DNA of 64,000 bases from Lachnospiraceae bacterium (lineage in GTDB: Bacteria > Bacillota > Clostridia > Lachnospirales > Lachnospiraceae). Below the pieces are notes generated by a model. It did no database searches and was not told where the DNA came from. It worked only from the letters and a program-made list of their open reading frames with translations. The stretch spans positions 1 to 64,000 of the forward strand of contig JAEEVK010000005.1 of assembly GCA_016287095.1 (NCBI GenBank), given 5' to 3'. This document shows, piece after piece, positions 9,164 to 27,441 of this stretch (position 1 is its first letter; the number at the start of each line of letters is the position of its first letter). The position numbers were made by a program, and so were the translations under genes.

Positions 9164-10357
9164 TCACTTTATACTTCCGAGCCATTCAACATTAACATTG
9201 CTTGTAACCGGTTCATGACTTATATCATCAGATATAACTATATTCCCTAAATATATATTATTAACCAATTCTCTGTAATCCTGTTCAGTGAAATCATCAT
9301 TCCACATCGTAGAATTTATCGGAAGCGACAGATAATTAGCATCAGGATCGGTACCGCTTATCAAGCCCAAGGATAATATTTTTCCTCTGTAATCATCCCA
9401 TTTACCGTTATTAATTATGTCGTCTAGTGCATCATAAGTCGCAGGATACAGGCCTTTTAAAGCTGATGTTATGGTAATGCCTTCACCATACATACCGTCA
9501 ATAAGATTTTTCTGGTCGGTATCAACTCCTATTACCTTACCGCCATGTTTTGAAGCTGCCTCACTTACGGAAACAAATATTCCACCGCCGCAGGAAAAGA
9601 CCACTTCTGTACCATTAGCATACCAGGTCTCCATCGCTGCTGATATTTCAGCATCACCGTTAAAAGTATTTGCATATGCATATTTCATATTAACAGTAAT
9701 GCCTTTTTCTTTTGCCGCTTCATTTATTCCCTGAACATAACCGTATCCGAACCTTAAAACTCCGGGCACAGCCATGCCTCCCAGAAATCCCAGATCGTTG
9801 TATCCAAGCATCACCGCTGTATAACCTGCAAGATAGCCGCTGATCTCCTCTTTAAAAAGTGCGTCATATACATTTTCATAGTGATAATAATCCATTACAT
9901 TCCAGTTAGAAGGATTATAATCATAGGCTTCACCTTTTCTTGGAACACCTGCTGACAAAAGATCGCCATCAGAAACATCAAGAACTATAAATTTAATATC
10001 AGGATATTTCTCAGATACTTCGATCAATGTACCCGTAAAAGAAAATCCGGGCATAACGATAACGTTATACCCTTCATCAATAGCACTTTCAACAGCTATA
10101 ACACGAGAAGCGGTATTATCCCCTGAAGGCTTTTTATATGTAAACATGATATTATTATCATCACAAAAAGCCTTGCAGGCTTGATAAGTAGACTGATTGA
10201 AGCCCTGATCGGTTATATCACCCATATCCGAGATCATAGAGACCCTGTAATCAGTCCTTTTACCTTCTTCTTTGCATATTTCTTCAACATTATAACTGCA
10301 AGAGCATAATATAAGTGAAACCAAACAAAGTATAATTACTATATTTTTTCTTTTCAT
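9164..10357 (-). CDS. BMP family lipoprotein (substrate-binding, nucleoside/purine)
   Basis: Lipobox (LILCSC); VSMISDMGDITDQGFNQSTYQACKAF; C-terminal end of transporter operon in sequence order. Confidence 0.9.
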   Translation of the reverse strand: MKRKNIVIILCLVSLILCSCSYNVEEICKEEGKRTDYRVSMISDMGDITDQGFNQSTYQACKAFCDDNNIMFTYKKPSGDNTASRVIAVESAIDEGYNVIVMPGFSFTGTLIEVSEKYPDIKFIVLDVSDGDLLSAGVPRKGEAYDYNPSNWNVMDYYHYENVYDALFKEEISGYLAGYTAVMLGYNDLGFLGGMAVPGVLRFGYGYVQGINEAAKEKGITVNMKYAYANTFNGDAEISAAMETWYANGTEVVFSCGGGIFVSVSEAASKHGGKVIGVDTDQKNLIDGMYGEGITITSALKGLYPATYDALDDIINNGKWDDYRGKILSLGLISGTDPDANYLSLPINSTMWNDDFTEQDYRELVNNIYLGNIVISDDISHEPVTSNVNVEWLGSIK

Positions 10358-10368
10358 ATAGTCACGCT

Positions 10369-10776
10369 TTATAGTTTTTTACTGATACTAAGGATATTCT
10401 GACCATCCTTATACTCATATTTCATCTCATCTGTACCCTTTTTTGCCATATATATACCGAGACCGCCTATCTGTCTCTCCTGGGCAGATAAAGTAACGTC
10501 GGGATCCGCCTTGGCTGTCGGATCAAAAGGAATGCCACTGTCCTTAAATGTAATAGTTACATTAAGAGGATCCTGTGTAATATCGATACTTACTGTAGCC
10601 TCACCTGTACCGGGAGCATAAGCATAATGTGCGATATTTACATACAACTCCTCCACTGCTACATCCAGCTGCATCTGTACCTTCATGGGACAATCCACCG
10701 ATTCCAGTTCAGCATCTATAAAAGCAAGCACTTCATCGAGGCTCTCAACTGTGGCTGTTAGTTTTAATTCCTTCAT
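10369..10776 (-). CDS. RsbW-like anti-sigma factor / HATPase_c domain protein
   Basis: N-box VAVEELYVNIAHYAY, DSGIPFDP, GGLGIYMAKKGTDEMKYEYKDGQN. Confidence 0.88.
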   Translation of the reverse strand: MKELKLTATVESLDEVLAFIDAELESVDCPMKVQMQLDVAVEELYVNIAHYAYAPGTGEATVSIDITQDPLNVTITFKDSGIPFDPTAKADPDVTLSAQERQIGGLGIYMAKKGTDEMKYEYKDGQNILSISKKL

Positions 10777-10851: not shown

Positions 10852-13035
10852 TTAAACATTTCCAAAATACTCGAAACACAGCATCGTGATATCATCAAAT
10901 TGCGGTGCATCTTCTACAAAGTCCTCAATGCCTGCGGCCATGTTCTCAACCAGTTTCTTTGCATTAGCATCGGGTTCACGGTTAAGTACATTTATCATCC
11001 TTTCAGGGCCGAACAGTTCATTCTTTGCATCGGTAGCCTCAGCCACACCGTCGGTATATACAAAGAATACGTCTCCCGGTTTAAGTTCAAACTCATGCTG
11101 TCTGAAAGGTATACCGGGCATAACTGCAAGAGCCGGTGAATGTTTGTAAGTTATTAACTCAAACTGACCATCTTTATGCTTTAATGCCGGATGCTCGTGG
11201 CCTGCATTTGCAGCCCAGCCCTTACCGGTAGATATCTCGATGACAGCAAACCAGCAGGTTACAAAGAGCTCTGCTTCATTGCCTTCACATAACTGATCGT
11301 TTACATCTGCAAGTATCTGTGAAGGAGTTCCTCCCATCTGAGCCCTGTTCTTAATAAGAGTCTTTGCAATAACCATAAACAGTGCTGCAGGTACGCCCTT
11401 ACCTGATACATCGGCCATAACCAGTGCTATATGGTCATCATCAATAAGGAAGTAATCATAAAAGTCACCGCCGACCTCTTTAGCCGGATTCATAGATGCA
11501 AATAGGTCAAACTCTTTTCTGTCAGGGAAAGGTGGGAATATACGAGGCAGCATATCTGCCTGTATCTGTGTAGCAACATTGAGCTCTGCACCGATCCTCT
11601 CTTTTTCTGCAGTAACTTTCTTTACCTGATCTATATAATTCAGTGTCTTTAGAGATAATGCCTCGAAGTTCTCGGCCAATACCTCTATTTCATCTCCGGT
11701 ACGATAAGTATCTTCCATTTTGAATGCCAGATCATCACCGCCGAGTGAAGTAACCCTTTCTGCCATCGCATTTAAAGGCTTAACAATCTTTTTGGCAAGG
11801 AATAAAGAATTTGTAATACCGATCAAAAATAGTACGATCAATATGATGATCAATAATTTCTTAGTATGACCGATGTTATTTTCATACTCGACTCTGGATT
11901 CATTTAATATTTTATTATTACCTTCAACCAGCATATTAGCAGGCTGTTCGGTAATTTCTTTATCAAACATTGAAACAAGTGCCCAGCCCACTGTGCCCAT
12001 ATTGGAGCCGCACATATAATACTGTTTCCCCTCGACAGTGACATTTTTTACATCAGTATTACCGTTAAGTGCATCGGTAATAAAACCAGCGAGTTCTTTA
12101 TCCTCATCCTCTCTTAAGTCTTTTGCATCATCTGAAGCATATGCCTTAAATTTACCATATTTGTCAGGCGAAAATACTACATGACCTTTGTTATTTACTA
12201 TAAATGTCATGCCGCCATCCTTAGATACAGATTCAATACCTGTTTCAAAGGCATCCAGGAATATCTCACATCCTATGACAGCCTCAACTTTGCCGTTAAC
12301 ATATATAGGAATGGTACAAAGCATTTCTTTTTTCAGAGTAAACTTATCATATTCGATCTCTGAAAAGAATATCCCGCCGGCTTCAACAGCACCTTTATAC
12401 CAGGCTCTTTCAGTACCGTTAAATACTATGGGAGTACCATCATCATTGTATTTTGAGGCGGATCTGGTATCTGCTATAAAGCTGAATCCTTCAGGTACAG
12501 AAAGGAAACACCCGCTGACATCCGAGCTGGATACCAGTGAACACATCATATCAGAAATAGCAGCCAGTCGGTTATATTTTTCTGCAACAGCATTTGAAGT
12601 TAATTCTTTATTATCTGCCCAAAATAATTGAGTAATAAGTTTTCCGTCATTTGATTTATCGGGAGTTTTTATTTTTCTTAAGGCAAATGCAGTTTCATCG
12701 GCGATCTCTTTATCATTCAGGAGCTTGGTCGCATATTCTCCAAGCATCTCAACCTGAGTTTTAAGCTCTGAAAAAACATCGTCAGCTATATATGCCTCCA
12801 TAACTGTGGTCTGCTGCATTGTATTATTAACCACTGCATCCATAGTCTGATCGGTCATGCTGCGCATTGATTCTTCCTGTTTTTCGTTAGCTTCGGAAAC
12901 AAGCTTGGTCAGATCATTGGATGAATGGATCAAAACAACAGTATATGCTATAACGATGAAAACAATATTGACCAAAACCAGATTGAATATTTTGTTTTGA
13001 ATACCACCTATTATAAATTTCCCGAGTTTATGCAT
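10852..13035 (-). CDS. Membrane sensor PP2C (SpoIIE/RsbU-like) phosphatase with Cache-like sensor and HAMP
   Basis: N-terminal TM, extracytoplasmic domain, second TM + HAMP, then AKEVGGDFYDYFLIDDDHIALVMADVSGKGVPAALFM. Confidence 0.92.
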   Translation of the reverse strand: MHKLGKFIIGGIQNKIFNLVLVNIVFIVIAYTVVLIHSSNDLTKLVSEANEKQEESMRSMTDQTMDAVVNNTMQQTTVMEAYIADDVFSELKTQVEMLGEYATKLLNDKEIADETAFALRKIKTPDKSNDGKLITQLFWADNKELTSNAVAEKYNRLAAISDMMCSLVSSSDVSGCFLSVPEGFSFIADTRSASKYNDDGTPIVFNGTERAWYKGAVEAGGIFFSEIEYDKFTLKKEMLCTIPIYVNGKVEAVIGCEIFLDAFETGIESVSKDGGMTFIVNNKGHVVFSPDKYGKFKAYASDDAKDLREDEDKELAGFITDALNGNTDVKNVTVEGKQYYMCGSNMGTVGWALVSMFDKEITEQPANMLVEGNNKILNESRVEYENNIGHTKKLLIIILIVLFLIGITNSLFLAKKIVKPLNAMAERVTSLGGDDLAFKMEDTYRTGDEIEVLAENFEALSLKTLNYIDQVKKVTAEKERIGAELNVATQIQADMLPRIFPPFPDRKEFDLFASMNPAKEVGGDFYDYFLIDDDHIALVMADVSGKGVPAALFMVIAKTLIKNRAQMGGTPSQILADVNDQLCEGNEAELFVTCWFAVIEISTGKGWAANAGHEHPALKHKDGQFELITYKHSPALAVMPGIPFRQHEFELKPGDVFFVYTDGVAEATDAKNELFGPERMINVLNREPDANAKKLVENMAAGIEDFVEDAPQFDDITMLCFEYFGNV

Positions 13036-13098: not shown

Positions 13099-13740
13099 TT
13101 AAAACTTTTTCTTCTCTATTACAAGCTCAACTGTATTTCCGCTGACACCGACTTTTACATCATCGGCTATACTGGCAATGATCGATTTCTCCAATTCATC
13201 CCAGGCTTCCTTTGCTGCCTCATCCTTATCGATGGAGCTTTCTACAGAACCCTTATAGGTATCGAGTGACCACATATAGTTTGCTGTACCCATAGCTGAA
13301 ACAGGATCTGTCTCATACATACCCATGGAACCATACATCAGAGGCATACCGCCATACTCAGCACTAAGTGTACCAACTTCATCAACGCTGTACATAGCGT
13401 TTTCGATGACCTGACGGATCTTGCCCATGATACCACGGGCAGCAGCATTCTTTTTATCTGATGAAGCAGCTATAAGTTCCTTGCGCTTAGCAAAGTCCAT
13501 ATCAGTCTTTGCTTTAAGATAAAGGCGTACAGCACAGTCCTTATCACTCTCTATTCTGTATTCAGCATTAAAGTCACCTGCGATAGCCTCTATCAGTCCA
13601 AGAGCTTCTTCAGTCATAAGCCTTACTCTCATGGCTGCTTTTTTATCAAGTCCTACATAAGAAGCAAACTTTCCCGCCTCTTCTAAAGCCTGATCCCAGC
13701 CGGTACCGTTAGCAGAAACCAAGATTTTATCTGTCTGCAT
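13099..13740 (-). CDS. Hypothetical protein with degenerate RsbW-like domain; homologous to C-terminus of the HD-GYP protein
   Basis: Shares RLxxEE...AGDxNAEY...and DELEKSIxAxIADDVxVxVxGNxVExV with the 24442-27441 C-terminus. Confidence 0.8.
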   Translation of the reverse strand: MQTDKILVSANGTGWDQALEEAGKFASYVGLDKKAAMRVRLMTEEALGLIEAIAGDFNAEYRIESDKDCAVRLYLKAKTDMDFAKRKELIAASSDKKNAAARGIMGKIRQVIENAMYSVDEVGTLSAEYGGMPLMYGSMGMYETDPVSAMGTANYMWSLDTYKGSVESSIDKDEAAKEAWDELEKSIIASIADDVKVGVSGNTVELVIEKKKF

Positions 13741-13755
13741 ATAAACCTCCGAAGA

Positions 13756-14055
13756 TTACTGAATAGTAAGGATATCTGAGAAGCCAGTAACTTCAAAGAT
13801 CTCATTAACTTCCTCTGATACGTTCTTAACTACCATGCTGCCCTGCTTGCTCATGATCTTCTGGGTTGAAAGAAGAACTCTGAGTCCTGCTGAAGAGATG
13901 TACTCTAACTTAGCAGCGTCGATGGTAAGATCTGTAACACCGTCGATAGCTTCCTTAATCTCTTTCTCAAGCTGAGGAGCTGTAACTGTATCAAGTCTGC
14001 CCTCAAGAGCAACTGTAAGCTTTGAACCAACACCTAAACGATCAATCTTTAACAT
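13756..14055 (-). CDS. STAS-domain anti-sigma factor antagonist
   Basis: DLTIDAAKLEYISSAGLRVLLSTQKIMSKQGSMVV is the SpoIIAA/RsbV signature. GGAGG RBS before ATG at 14055. Confidence 0.93.
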   Translation of the reverse strand: MLKIDRLGVGSKLTVALEGRLDTVTAPQLEKEIKEAIDGVTDLTIDAAKLEYISSAGLRVLLSTQKIMSKQGSMVVKNVSEEVNEIFEVTGFSDILTIQ

Positions 14056-14226: not shown

Positions 14227-15633
14227 TTACTTGTGAGATACGCCCTCACCGTAGATGGTCTTCCAGTCATTCTTCATGGATACGGGTATCCAGTCAAACT
14301 GCTCACATAATGCGAACATCTTGTTAGCCTTCTCGACATTACCGTTCTCACGCTCTGTATCGTCACAGCAAAGCATAAATGCGAGGCTCGGATATTCATT
14401 ATTGGTAGTAACATACTCTGCCATACTGGAGTCACCGGTACTGTTACCGAATGAAAGCACGGGCTGTACTCCGATTTCCTGAGCTATAACGGTTACCTTG
14501 TTCATCTTAAGGTTCTTTACGATAAACTCTCCACCGAAAACAACCGTATCATTGTCACCATATACATAGTTAAGACCGTCAACATCTTCCTGGTGGGTAG
14601 CAACAAGAGTTACATCAGATCCGATGATCTGTCTGTTAGGCAGCTTAAGCTTTGAATCCTTAACCAGGCCTCTAACAATAAATCTGTCTGTGCCGCTTAC
14701 TACATATACGGTAAAGTCATTAGCCTTTAAGAACTCAACGATCTGGATCATGGGCTCATAGAATGCCTCTCCGAGAGTCATGCCATCATAACTGTTCATA
14801 GGGGTCTTCTTAAACTCAGCTATATAATCATAAAACTCATCGGGAGTTAAGCCCTTAAATGAAGAAGCAACAGCTGTACCATGTCTTACTGACATATTTT
14901 CAGGCTCTTTACCTGTTTCATTCATATACAAAACATCATTTGCCACTTCTTTCTCAAAATCAGAAGCCTTATCCTTGTAGTTTTCATCTACAAGCACATG
15001 ATATGCCAAAAGAAGGTGGTCAAAATAGTTAGGATCTGTCTCACAGTAAAGGGTACCGTCAAGATCGAATACAGCAATACGTCTGTCTACGGGGATATAA
15101 TCCTTACCGCCTTCTGTTGTGATAGCCTGCATATATGCTACTATAGCCTGCTTTGCAGGAGCATCATCCTCCCAATCTGAAAGGAGCTCTGCATGTACAT
15201 CGTTTTTAGATGCAGCCTCGATTACAGCCTTCTTTGTCTTACTGTATGCAGAAACAACTACACCGTTATATGCCTTAACTCTGATATAATAGGTGCCGGC
15301 AGCCAAACCTTCAACTTTATATGTTCTCTTTTTACTACCGTCTTCATCAAGCTGTCCTATCAGCTGATATCTGTCATAGCCTTTTGTCTTAACATATACA
15401 AGATAGCCTTCGGCATCTGCATTCTTCTTGATTGTCAATGTTGCAGAATCACCATCTACCTTAACTGAAATCTTAGGTTTTGAAATTTGTGTTTTTGTAA
15501 CTTTTCCGGTTACTGAATATTCAGGCAAAACAACCTCTTCGTCAGCCTTGATATTTACATTCTCAAAGCCTGACATAGTGATGATCATCACTAAAACAAG
15601 TAATAAAGCATTAATCTTTTTCATATCATTCAT
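14227..15633 (-). CDS. Secreted HAD-superfamily hydrolase with N-terminal fibronectin-III-like segment
   Basis: Signal peptide; FN3-like segment (GYLVYVKTKGYDRYQLIG...TYYIRVKAYN); HAD motif IAVFDLDGTL, VVSGTD, FGNSTGDSSM. Confidence 0.85.
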   Translation of the reverse strand: MNDMKKINALLLVLVMIITMSGFENVNIKADEEVVLPEYSVTGKVTKTQISKPKISVKVDGDSATLTIKKNADAEGYLVYVKTKGYDRYQLIGQLDEDGSKKRTYKVEGLAAGTYYIRVKAYNGVVVSAYSKTKKAVIEAASKNDVHAELLSDWEDDAPAKQAIVAYMQAITTEGGKDYIPVDRRIAVFDLDGTLYCETDPNYFDHLLLAYHVLVDENYKDKASDFEKEVANDVLYMNETGKEPENMSVRHGTAVASSFKGLTPDEFYDYIAEFKKTPMNSYDGMTLGEAFYEPMIQIVEFLKANDFTVYVVSGTDRFIVRGLVKDSKLKLPNRQIIGSDVTLVATHQEDVDGLNYVYGDNDTVVFGGEFIVKNLKMNKVTVIAQEIGVQPVLSFGNSTGDSSMAEYVTTNNEYPSLAFMLCCDDTERENGNVEKANKMFALCEQFDWIPVSMKNDWKTIYGEGVSHK

Positions 15634-17008
15634 TCCCTTCCTTTATTTGTTCTTTTTTCTTTTCTTTTGCTGATTTATAGAAAGCAACTTCCTTCATAGC
15701 TCCGTTCTTAACTTCATAAAGACAGGTATCGGCACGTTTGAACAATGTCTCCAGATCAATACCGTTTTCTCCGAATGCTACTCCGCAACTGACCTTTACA
15801 GTAGGATCATCATCCTGTTTAATACTAAGCATTTTATTGATTTTCTTTATCTTTGTATCAAGCAGAGAAGCAAGTGATGAGTCACTGTGTACCATAATAA
15901 CTGCCATCTCATCGCCGCCTATACGGCAAACATAATCCTGTGACCTGAAGTTTTCATAAATGGCATTACCGACTCTGGTCAGTATCCTGTCTCCCACATC
16001 ATGACCGTAAGTATCATTGATTGCCTTGAACCTGTCTATATCAAAAAGTAATAAAGCAGATGTCTCTAAGTCGAGGTTTTCCATTAGGAAATCATATCCT
16101 CTTCTGTTATATAGACCTGTCAGCTTATCATGAGTAGCCTCATATGAGAGTTTTTCCTTACTCTGCATATTGGTATGATGTATAAGGTTATATGTTTTTG
16201 CAAGGAAACGTATTTCATATGCACCTTTAATAGGTAAGTCCTCTTCTTCGCGGATAAGATCAACGGAGTTTTTAAGCGGCAGGATAACCAGTCTGTATGT
16301 AAGAATTACAATACCCAGCAGCATTACTATTATCAATATAGTAAGAATATGCTCAAATACTACCTGCTTACGTAGTTTTTCAGCATATTTTGCCTGCTCT
16401 TCCTTCATTTCTTCATCAAGCAGATTAAGACAGTTCTCCATATGTGAAGAGATAACCTCTTTTCTCTTACGATACTCGTCACCATGCATCATAAGCATCG
16501 CCATCTCTTTCATCTGTTCACTGGACATATCGGTATCCGGAGACATAAGCTTTACATTCTGTATTTCTTCGGGATATTCGGACACATCATATCCATATGC
16601 CAAGACCGTCAGCCTTGCTGCGTAATACTCACGCTCCATAAGGCTTAAAGACTCATCCATAGCGGCACTCAGATCCCTGTAGGCAGCAGATCTTGCATGA
16701 TCCTGTCCCAATACTTTTAATGCATTTTCACGCCTCTTTGTTACTTTTGCCTCTGTAAAGTAATTATCCAGATACTCCCTATCACCTGTTACGGTGAAAT
16801 CCTGCATCATCTCTGTAAGATAATCTGATGCTCTCTGAAGATCATATGAACTGCTTCTCCACTCTATAAACTTTTGAGTGTACTCATGTGTCTCCTCATT
16901 AATGTTGGTTGTCATGTTCATTGCCACGATCAGTCCTATCGAAAGCAAGACAGAAACTGCCAACATTAAGATGTTAACTCTGCGTAAAGATATTCCACGC
17001 TTAAACAT
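15626..17008 (-). CDS. Membrane diguanylate cyclase (GGDEM variant)
   Basis: Two TM segments flanking an extracytoplasmic helical region; DKLTGLYNRRGYD; RSQDYVCRIGGDEMAVI with RxxD I-site. Confidence 0.9.
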   Translation of the reverse strand: MFKRGISLRRVNILMLAVSVLLSIGLIVAMNMTTNINEETHEYTQKFIEWRSSSYDLQRASDYLTEMMQDFTVTGDREYLDNYFTEAKVTKRRENALKVLGQDHARSAAYRDLSAAMDESLSLMEREYYAARLTVLAYGYDVSEYPEEIQNVKLMSPDTDMSSEQMKEMAMLMMHGDEYRKRKEVISSHMENCLNLLDEEMKEEQAKYAEKLRKQVVFEHILTILIIVMLLGIVILTYRLVILPLKNSVDLIREEEDLPIKGAYEIRFLAKTYNLIHHTNMQSKEKLSYEATHDKLTGLYNRRGYDFLMENLDLETSALLLFDIDRFKAINDTYGHDVGDRILTRVGNAIYENFRSQDYVCRIGGDEMAVIMVHSDSSLASLLDTKIKKINKMLSIKQDDDPTVKVSCGVAFGENGIDLETLFKRADTCLYEVKNGAMKEVAFYKSAKEKKKEQIKEGNE

Positions 17009-17057: not shown

Positions 17058-17438
17058 TCACCATGTGAAATGAAACATAGTCCTCATTCTGCCACGAATC
17101 AGATCCACATCGAACGGTTTACAAATAAAATCCTTAATGTTATATGGAAGTGTTTTTAACAGATTCTGTTCTGTACTTTCTGCTGTAATGATTATAACAG
17201 GTATATCTGTTATTTTATTTTCCTTCATAAGCTCCAACACGTGGAAGCCATCAAGCACAGGCATATGCAGGTCAAGCAGTATACCGTCTATCCTACGCCT
17301 GTTTTCTAGTAGAGTCTCCATACCCTTAAAACCGTTTTCAGCTTCTAAAATGTGAAAGTCAATCTCGAGTATTTTCTTTAGTATGCTTCTGTCGACTTCA
17401 GAGTCATCGATTATCAAAAGACGTTTATAATCATTCAT
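17058..17438 (-). CDS. Single-domain response regulator (REC)
   Basis: LLIIDDSEVDRS, DGILLDLHMPVLDG, ITAEST, DFICKPF; no output domain. Confidence 0.93.
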   Translation of the reverse strand: MNDYKRLLIIDDSEVDRSILKKILEIDFHILEAENGFKGMETLLENRRRIDGILLDLHMPVLDGFHVLELMKENKITDIPVIIITAESTEQNLLKTLPYNIKDFICKPFDVDLIRGRMRTMFHFTW

Positions 17439-17456
17439 AAAAAACCTCACTAGATT

Positions 17457-20837: not shown

Positions 20838-21935
20838 CTATTTGAATATGATCTTTATGTTGTTCATTCCATCTTTATAAGAATACTTCACATCATTTGT
20901 CAGTTTCCTGATCAGAGTTGCAGACAACTCGTCCCCCTCATTAAACGGATTATACCTTGTACAGGAATAGTTTATTTCCATCTTTAAGCTTTCATCGGCA
21001 TCCGAATACTCTATCATCACATCAATCGGATAAAGATCATTATATACCTCTCCGTAAGGTACGAGATTCTGAGTCACGATCTCTTCAAAAGCAAGCTGTA
21101 CATTTCTCATAAGCTTGTCAGGCAGCATATTGTTTCTTCCAAACTGTTCGATTTCTGATGTAAATCCAATAAAATCGTAGTTTTCATCTTTAACTTCCAG
21201 GAATAACTGTTTTAACCTCTTGATAAAGACTCTGGTTTTTTCTTTCTTCGGATGATTAAATATCTGATCGGGTGTACCGTCCTCGCATATACCGCCTTCA
21301 TCCATATAGAATATACGATTTGAAACATCACGTGCAAACTTCATCTCATGAGTAACTATCATCATAGTCATGCCTTCGTTTGCAAGCTTTCTGATAACCG
21401 AAAGTACTTCACCTACCATCGTAGGGTCAAGTGCTGATGTAGGCTCATCAAACAGGATCAGCTCCGGTTTCATGGCTATTGCTCTTGCGATAGCTACACG
21501 CTGTTTCTGACCTCCTGAAAGCTCTGAGGGCAGATTAAATGCCTTTTCAGCAAGTCCGACTCTCTTTAACAGCTTCATTCCCTCATCATATGCTTCCTGC
21601 TTAGGCATATTTAACAGCTTCATGGGAGCAACCATTATATTTTCAATAATGTTCAGGTTATCAAACAGATTAAATGACTGGAATACCATACCCATTTTCT
21701 GTCTAACGAGGTTCATTTTACATTTGGGATCGGTGATTTCTTCATCGTTAAAGAAAACCTTTCCGGATGTAGGCTGTTCCAGCTGGTTCAGACATCTTAA
21801 AAGTGTTGATTTACCGGTACCTGAGGGTCCAATGATCGATATGACATCACCCTTATTGATCTCTACCGTAACATCCTTTAAAGGGGTAACATTTGAATAT
21901 TCTTTTCTTAAATGCTCTATTCTTAATAAACTCAA
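20838..21935 (-). CDS. Polar amino-acid ABC transporter ATPase fused to degenerate RsbW-like C-terminal domain
   Basis: GPSGTGKSTLLRCLNQLEQPTSG, LSGGQKQRVAIARAIAMKPELILFDEPTSALDP; then FTSEIEQFGRNNMLPDKLMRNVQLAFEEIVTQN...TNDVKYSYKDGMNNIKIIFK. Confidence 0.88.
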   Translation of the reverse strand: MSLLRIEHLRKEYSNVTPLKDVTVEINKGDVISIIGPSGTGKSTLLRCLNQLEQPTSGKVFFNDEEITDPKCKMNLVRQKMGMVFQSFNLFDNLNIIENIMVAPMKLLNMPKQEAYDEGMKLLKRVGLAEKAFNLPSELSGGQKQRVAIARAIAMKPELILFDEPTSALDPTMVGEVLSVIRKLANEGMTMMIVTHEMKFARDVSNRIFYMDEGGICEDGTPDQIFNHPKKEKTRVFIKRLKQLFLEVKDENYDFIGFTSEIEQFGRNNMLPDKLMRNVQLAFEEIVTQNLVPYGEVYNDLYPIDVMIEYSDADESLKMEINYSCTRYNPFNEGDELSATLIRKLTNDVKYSYKDGMNNIKIIFK

Positions 21936-24441: not shown

Positions 24442-27441
24442 TTAGAATTTACGATAAACTACGATCTCAACATTATTTCCGTTAACCTTAACGCTTACAT
24501 CATCCGCAATGTTAGCAAGGATTGATTTTTCAAGTTCGTCACAAGCATTTGCAGACTTCTTATCATTCTGATCCATCCTGCGTTTAACTTCTGTCCTGTA
24601 TTCTTCCATATTCCATGAAAATTCATTTTCATTTTTGGAAACAAGCACTGAAGCTATCATGCCTCTTAACCTGCTCATAAATCCCTTGGAATCAGAATTA
24701 TCCCTGGACTTTTTAGCAGTTAACTGTTCCTTCATTTCCGGAGTAATTTCAATTTCGGAGTTCAAATGAAGTTCATAATCCCTGCCAGAAACCTCAAGAT
24801 AATACTCGGCATTTACATCGCCTGCAACAGTCTTTACCATACCCATAAGCTCTTCTGCAAGCAATCTAAGGTGAAGCTTAGCCTTCTTTTCCAGACCGCT
24901 TGTAGCAGACAGTCTCTCTGTCATGGCAAGAGCCTCGTCTTCACCCTTTCCGTTTCTGTATACCTTAACTATTGAGGATCTGACCTTTTCTATGGCATTT
25001 TCATGTATTTCATTTATATTTTCACCGGCCATCATTCGTTCAAACAACTCTGCACCGGTAAGTTTTATATTGGTTATGGCTACCTGATCGCCGGTCAGTG
25101 CCATATATATTATATCGGCTTTTCCGTTTACTTTCGTAATATTTTTAATAAAAATTCCGTCATTATCGGTATAAGTAGTAACCGTACTTTCCTTTTTTTC
25201 AAATCTGACGGTTGAATCAAAGCCGTTTCTGTTAAACGCTCTCCATTCATCCCATCCGCTGAACGCCTCTGCCTTGTTAACTATTATCTTATTCTCGGCA
25301 AATCCACCGGTTTCCCAATTTTCCCCGTCAAGCCTGATAAGAGCAAATTCCCTGTAGTTTACACCGTTAACCTTTCCATCATCGGCATAGAATAATACGA
25401 TAAACGGTGTATGCCATACCAGCCTTGCTGTAGGCAGGCTCATGCCATGAAAAGCTACACACATGCCGTCGTTGATAGGTATACCGATAGTAGATGCAGT
25501 TCTGTATCCGTCTACCTGAACATTGGGTACATCACCTTCCGGTCCGTTGATAAAGCTTACCTTTTCAGCAATACGTGTTATATAGTCCTCACTTACAGCC
25601 TTATCATCCTTATTGATCACAACATCGCTTATATCACAGTATTCACCTGTTAGACCCACATAACAGTATCTGGTGCTGTCAGGCAAAGCCACCGTGATCT
25701 CTGTTGTATGCTCAGGACTCATGATCCTGATTAAAACATGATCGGAAATCTTAACTCCTTCGATGATATAGCCTTTCTCATTAGGTTTGTTAAGCAGTTT
25801 GCCCACATCTGCATTTTCCTTTTCTTCTACCTTCATCTTGCGGGCAGCATCAAGCACTGTCTTTCCATCGAAACGTATCTCCCCGTATTCGGTGTAGTTC
25901 ATATCCTTCTTCATCTTCTCATCGGTATATACGCGACCGTCAAGCGAATCAAACAATACTATCGAAGGCATTCCTACCACACCTGTCTCACTAACCTTGG
26001 GTGAACTGTTAAGATGTATGGTTGTAATGTTTTCAAGAAGTAAGATACCTTCTGATATCTCGCTTCTGTATTCCTTACATATAAGTTCTCTTCTGCCTGA
26101 AAGTTCTTTTATTTCTTCCTTTTCCTGCATCTCGTATTCTTCATCGAGATCGATCAGGTGTATCATGATCTTTGCAAACTTAGGATCGAACTGAGTACCT
26201 GAGCCCTTTACAAATTCCTCACGTATCTTCTGCTGAGGTATGGGATCCCTGTAGCTTCTCTTTGATGACATAGCATCATAAGCATCGGCTACAGCCACAA
26301 TCCTGGCTATCTCAGGGATATCCTCACCTTTAAGCTTTTCCGGATAACCCTTACCGTCATATCTTTCATGATGGTAGTTTGCACCTATACTTAAATATTG
26401 GAACTCACTGATACCTGAAAGTATGCCCTGACCTATCTCGGGATGCCTCTTTATCTGTTCATATTCATTATCATCCAGACGTCCGACTTTATTTATAATA
26501 GAATCCTTTATACCGATCTTTCCAACATCATGAAGAAGAGCTGCATAATATACTTCATAGCATTCCTTCTCACTCTTGCCGCTCATCTCTGCAATCTTTC
26601 TGGAATACTCAGCCACTCGTGATGAATGTCCGTGTGTATACTTATCCTTTGCATCGATCGAGTTTACAAGGGCTGTAGCCGTCTGTTCAAACAGACGCTG
26701 CGTACTCTTTTGGGAGTTTTTCAGATACTGTATCTCTTTTTCATTGGCACGGCTAACTGTCTCATTAAGATCCATTAGTGCAAATAAGAACAGTACAATA
26801 GCCAGAACAGCTACAAAAATCGAAGTAATCGATAATCCGTATACAAAAAGCTGGATAAGTGAAGCTATTACCGGGCCTACAATAAAAAGAATCAGTGAAA
26901 AGCAGATCTTTTTAGATATCTTTTTCCTGTTTTTAATTATGACTATCAGTTCAATAATAATAGTCAGTAACGGGAAAATATAACTGATGAAATATACGGA
27001 CGATCTATAGTAATTATTTGATTCATCAAAATAATAATACAAATCTGTAAATTGAGAAATAATAAGCAAACCAATACCCACAGCAACAAGAATATCGGTT
27101 AACAGCAGGAGTTTTGATGTCTTTCCGTCTTCTTCATTAATATAGAATAAGTCTTTCAGATATAAGTTGAATACACCCAATACAAAGATGGTTGTGAAAA
27201 ATAATACAAAGTTACTGATACGTATCATATAGTAACCCAATTCACTTGAATCACCCATAAATATATAGTTGTACCGGTCAAAAACGAGCATGAATACAAC
27301 AGTCAGTTCGATCAGGACAAGAGAAATCTTTCTCCTTTTTGAGAGCGTAGTAGTCACGCATACGCAGAAAGCTGAAAATCCGCATATGCATATCAGCGCA
27401 AACATTATATCAAGTTGGTAATCTATGATAAATTGTAACAT
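24442..27441 (-). CDS. Multi-TM HD-GYP domain protein with uncharacterised middle region and RsbW-like C-terminal domain
   Basis: N-terminal hydrophobic segments; HGHSSRVAEYS, LLHDVGKIGI, HHERYDGKGYPEKLKGEDIPEIARIVAVADAYDAM; C-terminus homologous to 13099-13740 product. Confidence 0.9.
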   Translation of the reverse strand: MLQFIIDYQLDIMFALICICGFSAFCVCVTTTLSKRRKISLVLIELTVVFMLVFDRYNYIFMGDSSELGYYMIRISNFVLFFTTIFVLGVFNLYLKDLFYINEEDGKTSKLLLLTDILVAVGIGLLIISQFTDLYYYFDESNNYYRSSVYFISYIFPLLTIIIELIVIIKNRKKISKKICFSLILFIVGPVIASLIQLFVYGLSITSIFVAVLAIVLFLFALMDLNETVSRANEKEIQYLKNSQKSTQRLFEQTATALVNSIDAKDKYTHGHSSRVAEYSRKIAEMSGKSEKECYEVYYAALLHDVGKIGIKDSIINKVGRLDDNEYEQIKRHPEIGQGILSGISEFQYLSIGANYHHERYDGKGYPEKLKGEDIPEIARIVAVADAYDAMSSKRSYRDPIPQQKIREEFVKGSGTQFDPKFAKIMIHLIDLDEEYEMQEKEEIKELSGRRELICKEYRSEISEGILLLENITTIHLNSSPKVSETGVVGMPSIVLFDSLDGRVYTDEKMKKDMNYTEYGEIRFDGKTVLDAARKMKVEEKENADVGKLLNKPNEKGYIIEGVKISDHVLIRIMSPEHTTEITVALPDSTRYCYVGLTGEYCDISDVVINKDDKAVSEDYITRIAEKVSFINGPEGDVPNVQVDGYRTASTIGIPINDGMCVAFHGMSLPTARLVWHTPFIVLFYADDGKVNGVNYREFALIRLDGENWETGGFAENKIIVNKAEAFSGWDEWRAFNRNGFDSTVRFEKKESTVTTYTDNDGIFIKNITKVNGKADIIYMALTGDQVAITNIKLTGAELFERMMAGENINEIHENAIEKVRSSIVKVYRNGKGEDEALAMTERLSATSGLEKKAKLHLRLLAEELMGMVKTVAGDVNAEYYLEVSGRDYELHLNSEIEITPEMKEQLTAKKSRDNSDSKGFMSRLRGMIASVLVSKNENEFSWNMEEYRTEVKRRMDQNDKKSANACDELEKSILANIADDVSVKVNGNNVEIVVYRKF

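Follow-up and report, generated by a model that had tools for sequence, protein, structure and literature searches.

Partner switching is known chiefly for the control of sigma factors, together with a few cases involving c-di-GMP. In crystals of RsbW with RsbV, RsbW Glu49 contacts RsbV Ser56, the serine that is phosphorylated, and hydrogen-bonds the STAS phosphoserine; RsbW Lys44 and Ser48 contact RsbV Tyr53, and R23 and D42 likewise contact RsbV (PMC7340262). Mycobacterium smegmatis RsbW3 is homologous to RsbW but serves its system neither as anti-sigma factor nor as STAS kinase (PMC7693655, PMC10950880), and is proposed to work by forming a heterodimer with RsbW1. In Pseudomonas aeruginosa, c-di-GMP enzymes are under the direct control of a partner-switch protein in HsbA-HsbD (PMC5085249) and, reportedly, in SiaC-SiaD (PMC8457831), the switch protein binding the diguanylate cyclase itself.

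The locus analysed here lies in a 64,000-nucleotide stretch from a Lachnospiraceae bacterium (GCA_016287095.1, contig JAEEVK010000005.1, positions 1 to 64,000), referred to below as the window. A preliminary description of this DNA had noted an uncharacterised domain common to a stand-alone protein and the C-terminus of an HD-GYP protein, and this domain, here named DOM, was recovered from both regions. It resembles RsbW, SpoIIAB and UsfX in fold order, in its two N-terminal helices, N-box Glu and C-terminal helix with hairpin, and in its genomic pairing with a Ser-phosphorylatable STAS protein and a SpoIIE phosphatase. Unlike these kinases, it lacks the N-box Asn, the G1 box and the GxG lid, occurs as an added module on effectors, and in stand-alone form carries an insert of up to ~90 residues modelled with low to middling confidence. 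Like RsbW3, it is an RsbW homologue that would be neither anti-sigma factor nor STAS kinase in this system, but it is much more diverged, lies beside STAS genes and is fused to effectors. In contrast to HsbA-HsbD and SiaC-SiaD, the HD-GYP protein carries a dedicated RsbW-like domain.

The stand-alone gene belongs to an operon (Table 1) with the order STAS, DOM, dCache-HAMP-SpoIIE phosphatase, RsbW-like kinase, BMP-type substrate-binding protein and ABC ATPase, separated by gaps of 15, 63, 75, 11 and 9 bp. This operon has the make-up of a partner-switching system: a STAS protein with a phospho-acceptor Ser, an RsbW-like kinase and a PP2C phosphatase. The HD-GYP gene is located ~10 kb away on the same strand. 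A GGDEF protein (15626-17008, minus strand) and a response regulator (17058-17450, minus strand) are encoded between the two, placing predicted genes for both making and breaking c-di-GMP near the switch.

Table 1. Features of the operon encoding stand-alone DOM and of the HD-GYP gene (positions in the window).
Feature	Position	Strand	Evidence
Stand-alone DOM protein, 213 aa, predicted ATP-dead, RsbW/SpoIIAB-like	13099..13740	-	BLASTP, model, alignments
Codons of invariant Glu pair E44-E45, N-box Glu; E45 aligns with RsbW Glu49	13606..13611	-	
L49 codon, place of Mg-coordinating N-box Asn	13594..13596	-	
N98 codon, near-invariant, in low-confidence loop	13447..13449	-	
DELEKS (181-186) codons, start of C-terminal helix, where kinases have GxG	13183..13200	-	
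STAS protein (anti-anti-sigma type), 113 aa	13756..14097	-	
STAS Ser69 codon, aligns with SpoIIAA phospho-Ser58	13891..13893	-	
Membrane sensor phosphatase: dCache, HAMP, SpoIIE/PP2C	10852..13035	-	
RsbW-like kinase, N-box Asn intact, HATPase_c_2 E=6e-22	10369..10776	-	
BMP-family substrate-binding protein, next operon gene	9164..10357	-	
HD-GYP protein, 999 aa, HD and GYP motifs present	24442..27441	-	
DOM copy at HD-GYP C-terminus, residues 820-999	24445..24984	-	

Comparison of the two proteins by BLASTP aligned residues 8-211 of the stand-alone protein with 827-998 of the HD-GYP protein (32% identity, 55% positives, 103 bits, E=1e-29). The earlier statement that the two align along their length therefore holds, apart from a gap of ~30 residues made by an insert in the variable middle. 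Both genes are on the minus strand; a plus-strand reading of the same coordinates has stops throughout and is not coding. A third copy is present in the same genome (G000:C30:50961-51557, 42% identical).

The similarity is far above chance, as a family profile built from 66 members detects DOM in 34 of the 388 genomes sampled from the class, the evidence in four being marginal matches only (E>0.001). The same profile detects it in 32 of 396 genomes of the family and, in a sample of 398 genomes from the whole phylum, in 4, two of which come from a single genus that is not in the class. Species genomes, when searched, yielded 91 relatives; the 80 that were retained come mainly from Lachnospiraceae of the rumen and from other Clostridia. 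DOM is covered by no family in Pfam or NCBIfam, searches with single members giving only weak or chance matches: the score against Pfam HATPase_c_2 (PF13581) is 12.1 bits, below the curated cut-off of 27.4, and only one of the 66 members matches that family at E<0.1. No description of the family was found in the full-text literature covered, which takes in few subscription papers and so does not prove novelty.

A sequence search of the PDB with the family profile gave no match, so structure comparison was needed. AlphaFold (AF2) models had a pLDDT of 79 and pTM of 0.75 for stand-alone DOM, with low confidence mainly in the insert, and of 90 and 0.84 for the HD-GYP copy. In both models the secondary-structure elements follow the Bergerat order b-a-a-b-b-...-a-b-b, as they do in SpoIIAB. 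SpoIIAB, UsfX and RsbW were the top Foldseek matches in the PDB for both (probability 1.00; best E 4.9e-3 for stand-alone DOM and 6.7e-5 for the HD-GYP copy), with a TM-score by target, the fairer number because the insert has no counterpart and makes the full-length rmsd large, of up to 0.66 and 0.73, respectively. After removal of the insert (residues 83-171), hhalign matched DOM to an alignment of 28 RsbW-like kinases end to end over 117 columns (probability 79, E 1.5e-5), scoring 35.5 against a maximum of 16.2 in 40 column-shuffled controls and 15.3 for a STAS alignment. In a profile search of 3952 ORFs, the best matches other than DOM were mostly RsbW-like kinases, of which there are just 43. 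The only significant match in a viral structure library was a phage HATPase-type protein, which adds nothing further. Two SDF sodium:dicarboxylate symporters (L129:2521-4107 and L130:1381-2952) have N-terminal extensions, perhaps RsbW-like, that are matched by the DOM profile (domain E of 7e-4 for L130; the L129 match is weak, E 1.6).

The preliminary description had placed the motif RLMTEEALGLI (residues 40-50 of the stand-alone protein) where RsbW has its N-box, with the Mg-coordinating Asn absent, and both points were borne out. The motif aligns without gaps with the N-box helix (VEELYVNI) of the window's own RsbW-like kinase, E44-E45 lying opposite kinase E42-E43, and L49 opposite N47. Among 167 DOM copies, 166 have a residue at the Asn position; 158 carry Met or Leu there and none carries Asn. 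The two adjacent Glu residues occur in all 166. The Asp and Gly of the G1 box (DxG) are replaced, mainly by A/V and T, and the place of the GxG lid is taken by ELEKS. The predicted fold, the family and the missing motifs, established by computation, agree with the earlier suggestion of a pseudo-kinase, anti-sigma-like domain, rather than with an unrelated fold or a failure of the two regions to match each other. The loss of all classical ATP motifs supports the prediction that DOM is kinase-dead.

The residues that RsbW presents to its STAS partner were mapped through the kinase alignment onto the RsbW chain and then onto DOM. By this route Glu49, Ser48, Lys44, Tyr118, Arg23 and Asp42 of RsbW correspond to E45, E44, R40, S186, L19 and R/H38 of DOM. 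E44, E45 and S186 rank first, second and fifth in conservation within the family, and R40 is Arg or Lys in 143 of 167 copies. Three of the six mapped contacts are among the 15 most conserved positions (P=0.005), in a test that is small and sensitive to the cut-off (P from 0.005 to 0.07). The counterparts of RsbW R23 and D42 are Leu and Arg/His, indicating that the STAS interface would differ in part. Judged from these alignments, DOM appears to have lost its ATP-facing residues and to have kept the STAS-facing set in part, not whole. A candidate charge pairing of R/H38 with STAS E99, which is present in 100% of DOM-adjacent STAS proteins, was dropped, as other STAS domains share this Glu.

About ten polar or aromatic residues of DOM are near-invariant, including N98, W157, D181 and E184. 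These four lie outside the mapped STAS contacts, and within DELEKS only S186 is one. Possible roles for N98, W157 and DELEKS are the binding of a ligand, of a second partner or of the attached effector. Their near-invariance is the main reason to retain an alternative in which the nucleotide site has been rebuilt, with E44, E45, the S-S-S-G-K-N98 loop, W157 and DELEKS as the new residues that bind ATP or some other ligand, and DOM acts as an unusual STAS kinase or a ligand sensor. Such a site would account for more near-invariant residues than a plain docking face needs, and the consensus loop SSSGKN resembles a phosphate-binding loop. This loop, which precedes a short helix (KN...GIMGKIR), is modelled with low confidence, however, and K96 replaces its Gly in the window protein; together with the loss of every classical ATP motif, this makes a rebuilt site unlikely. 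The N98 loop and helix weakly resemble the C-terminal tail of L132:2147-3283 (a DnaJ by eye, domain E 0.003) and the N-terminal part of L133:1714-2067 (SecE-like by eye, domain E 0.02), resemblances that may reflect amphipathic-helix composition alone.

The genomic neighbourhood of DOM links it to STAS proteins. A stand-alone STAS gene adjoins 73 of 112 distinct non-HD-GYP DOM proteins, on the same strand and mostly within 50 bp, either upstream (39) or downstream (34). In all 73 of these STAS proteins the phospho-acceptor Ser is conserved, as is a Tyr three residues ahead of it that corresponds to RsbV Tyr53. At least 34 of the 112 genes have no adjacent STAS gene, and some of the genes outside the 73 come directly after a gene for a SpoIIE-kinase fusion. 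The STAS adjacency and the retained STAS-facing residues indirectly support competition of DOM for STAS.

Longer loci were surveyed for operon content (93 entries, loci with two DOM genes being counted twice). STAS and DOM occur together in 36 entries, with a kinase in a further 15, with kinase and phosphatase in 13 and with a phosphatase only in 4; DOM accompanies a kinase and/or phosphatase without STAS in 3, and has none of these in 22. The 36 entries without a recognised kinase or phosphatase, and the 4 with a phosphatase and no kinase, would suit a rebuilt, catalytically active DOM. Against this, a canonical kinase is also present in 14 of the 19 entries whose operons include a SpoIIE gene, one of the exceptions being at a contig end, which indicates that DOM usually adds to the kinase and does not replace it.

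The survey also bears on the proposal that DOM targets the true kinase and not STAS, forming a heterodimer with the RsbW-like kinase that blocks or tunes it. RsbW dimerises through b1 and a1 (PMC7340262), both of which are kept in DOM, tandem DOM proteins could represent covalent dimers, and the proposed RsbW3-RsbW1 pair of M. smegmatis provides a precedent (PMC7693655). Kinase heterodimerisation is nevertheless quite improbable, given that the 36 entries with STAS and DOM have no kinase in the operon and that a decoy role leaves the effector fusions unexplained.

Several Butyrivibrio loci associate DOM with a sigma factor. At seven loci, three of them from one genome, an ECF sigma gene precedes a tandem DOM gene by 30-87 bp, with STAS next in order; at two more, a single DOM gene has the sigma gene about 4.4 kb upstream. 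The seven loci would fit a role for DOM as a plain anti-sigma factor for ECF-type sigma factors, in which STAS merely releases the sigma factor and the effector fusions are secondary. A sigma gene is absent, however, from the window operon and from most other DOM loci, and the closest own-genome relatives of the Butyrivibrio sigma factors are just 26-29% identical and on other contigs. It is therefore very doubtful that this role describes the family as a whole.

DOM is also attached to a range of effectors. It is found at the C-terminus of HD-GYP proteins (that of the window and two relatives) and of six MscS-family channels from six genomes, whereas two alpha/beta hydrolases and one glyoxalase-like protein carry it at the N-terminus. 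One operon (L218) has the order MscS-DOM, DOM, STAS. The full-text literature covered, with its few subscription papers, yielded no description of an RsbW-like domain on a mechanosensitive channel. Butyrivibrio proteins of ~400 aa, considered as longer single domains, proved to be two DOM copies in tandem, and an apparent natural STAS-DOM fusion (L178) was set aside as it appears frame-broken. HD-GYP proteins that share this architecture but lack DOM are widespread, and a pair of paralogues in the same genome end just where DOM would begin; DOM was thus most likely gained by a pre-existing HD-GYP protein. Residues ~441-797 of the HD-GYP protein are common to many HD-GYP proteins of ~700-800 aa in the family and have no convincing Pfam match. 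The earlier view of DOM as a stand-alone competitor for STAS is too narrow, since DOM is also a module on several effectors and is paired with an ECF sigma factor in Butyrivibrio.

Other RsbW-like fusions were observed at the same loci. Proteins of ~525-560 aa beside DOM-STAS genes (L025, L061, L072 and L091) have an N-terminal STAS domain, a middle region resembling aminoglycoside-phosphotransferase-type kinases by eye and a C-terminal RsbW-like kinase, and at L033, L043, L054 and L094 genes near DOM encode transporters that look MATE-like by eye and carry an RsbW-like ATPase domain at the C-terminus. The SpoIIE-HATPase, MATE-HATPase and STAS-kinase-HATPase fusions of these loci are, like DOM, modules in clostridial signalling proteins, but most keep the N-box Asn, which DOM never does. 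In the window, a polar amino-acid ABC transporter ATPase (20838-21935, minus strand) has an extra C-terminal domain of ~115 residues (20841-21200), which matches RsbW-like kinases by profile (best domain E of about 1e-6 or below) but looks degenerate. Relatives occur in 9 other of 200 family genomes, with a short stand-alone copy of 148 aa in the same genome, and this domain represents a second, different RsbW-like family, on a transporter.

Taken together, the results indicate that DOM probably serves as an ATP-dead receptor of RsbW type, coupling partner switching to effectors by docking STAS. In the operon, phosphorylation of STAS Ser69 would be set by the sensor phosphatase together with the true kinase. 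One form of STAS, presumably the dephosphorylated form by analogy, would bind DOM at the invariant Glu pair. Phosphorylation of Ser69 would alter this docking, which in turn would change the output attached to or associated with DOM. Stand-alone DOM may hold or buffer STAS, or act as an anti-sigma factor where a sigma gene is present, as in Butyrivibrio, and DOM on the HD-GYP protein would let the STAS signal set c-di-GMP breakdown. STAS binding by DOM, its dependence on phosphorylation, the direction of its effect and the pairing of each STAS with a given DOM are all inferred. The effect could have either sign: in Pseudomonas, phosphorylated HsbA binds its diguanylate cyclase and dephosphorylated HsbA binds FlgM (PMC5085249).

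More tentatively, and with somewhat less than even confidence, DOM could be a general receiver for phospho-regulated STAS proteins across transcription, c-di-GMP breakdown, mechanosensitive channels and metabolic enzymes, making it a currency of clostridial signalling. Neither Pfam nor NCBIfam covers DOM, which occurs in Lachnospiraceae of rumen and gut and in other Clostridia. If the proposed role is correct, a dead-kinase domain travelling with STAS would make partner switching a general wiring system, in which one phosphorylation switch would drive many different outputs, including enzymes and channels.
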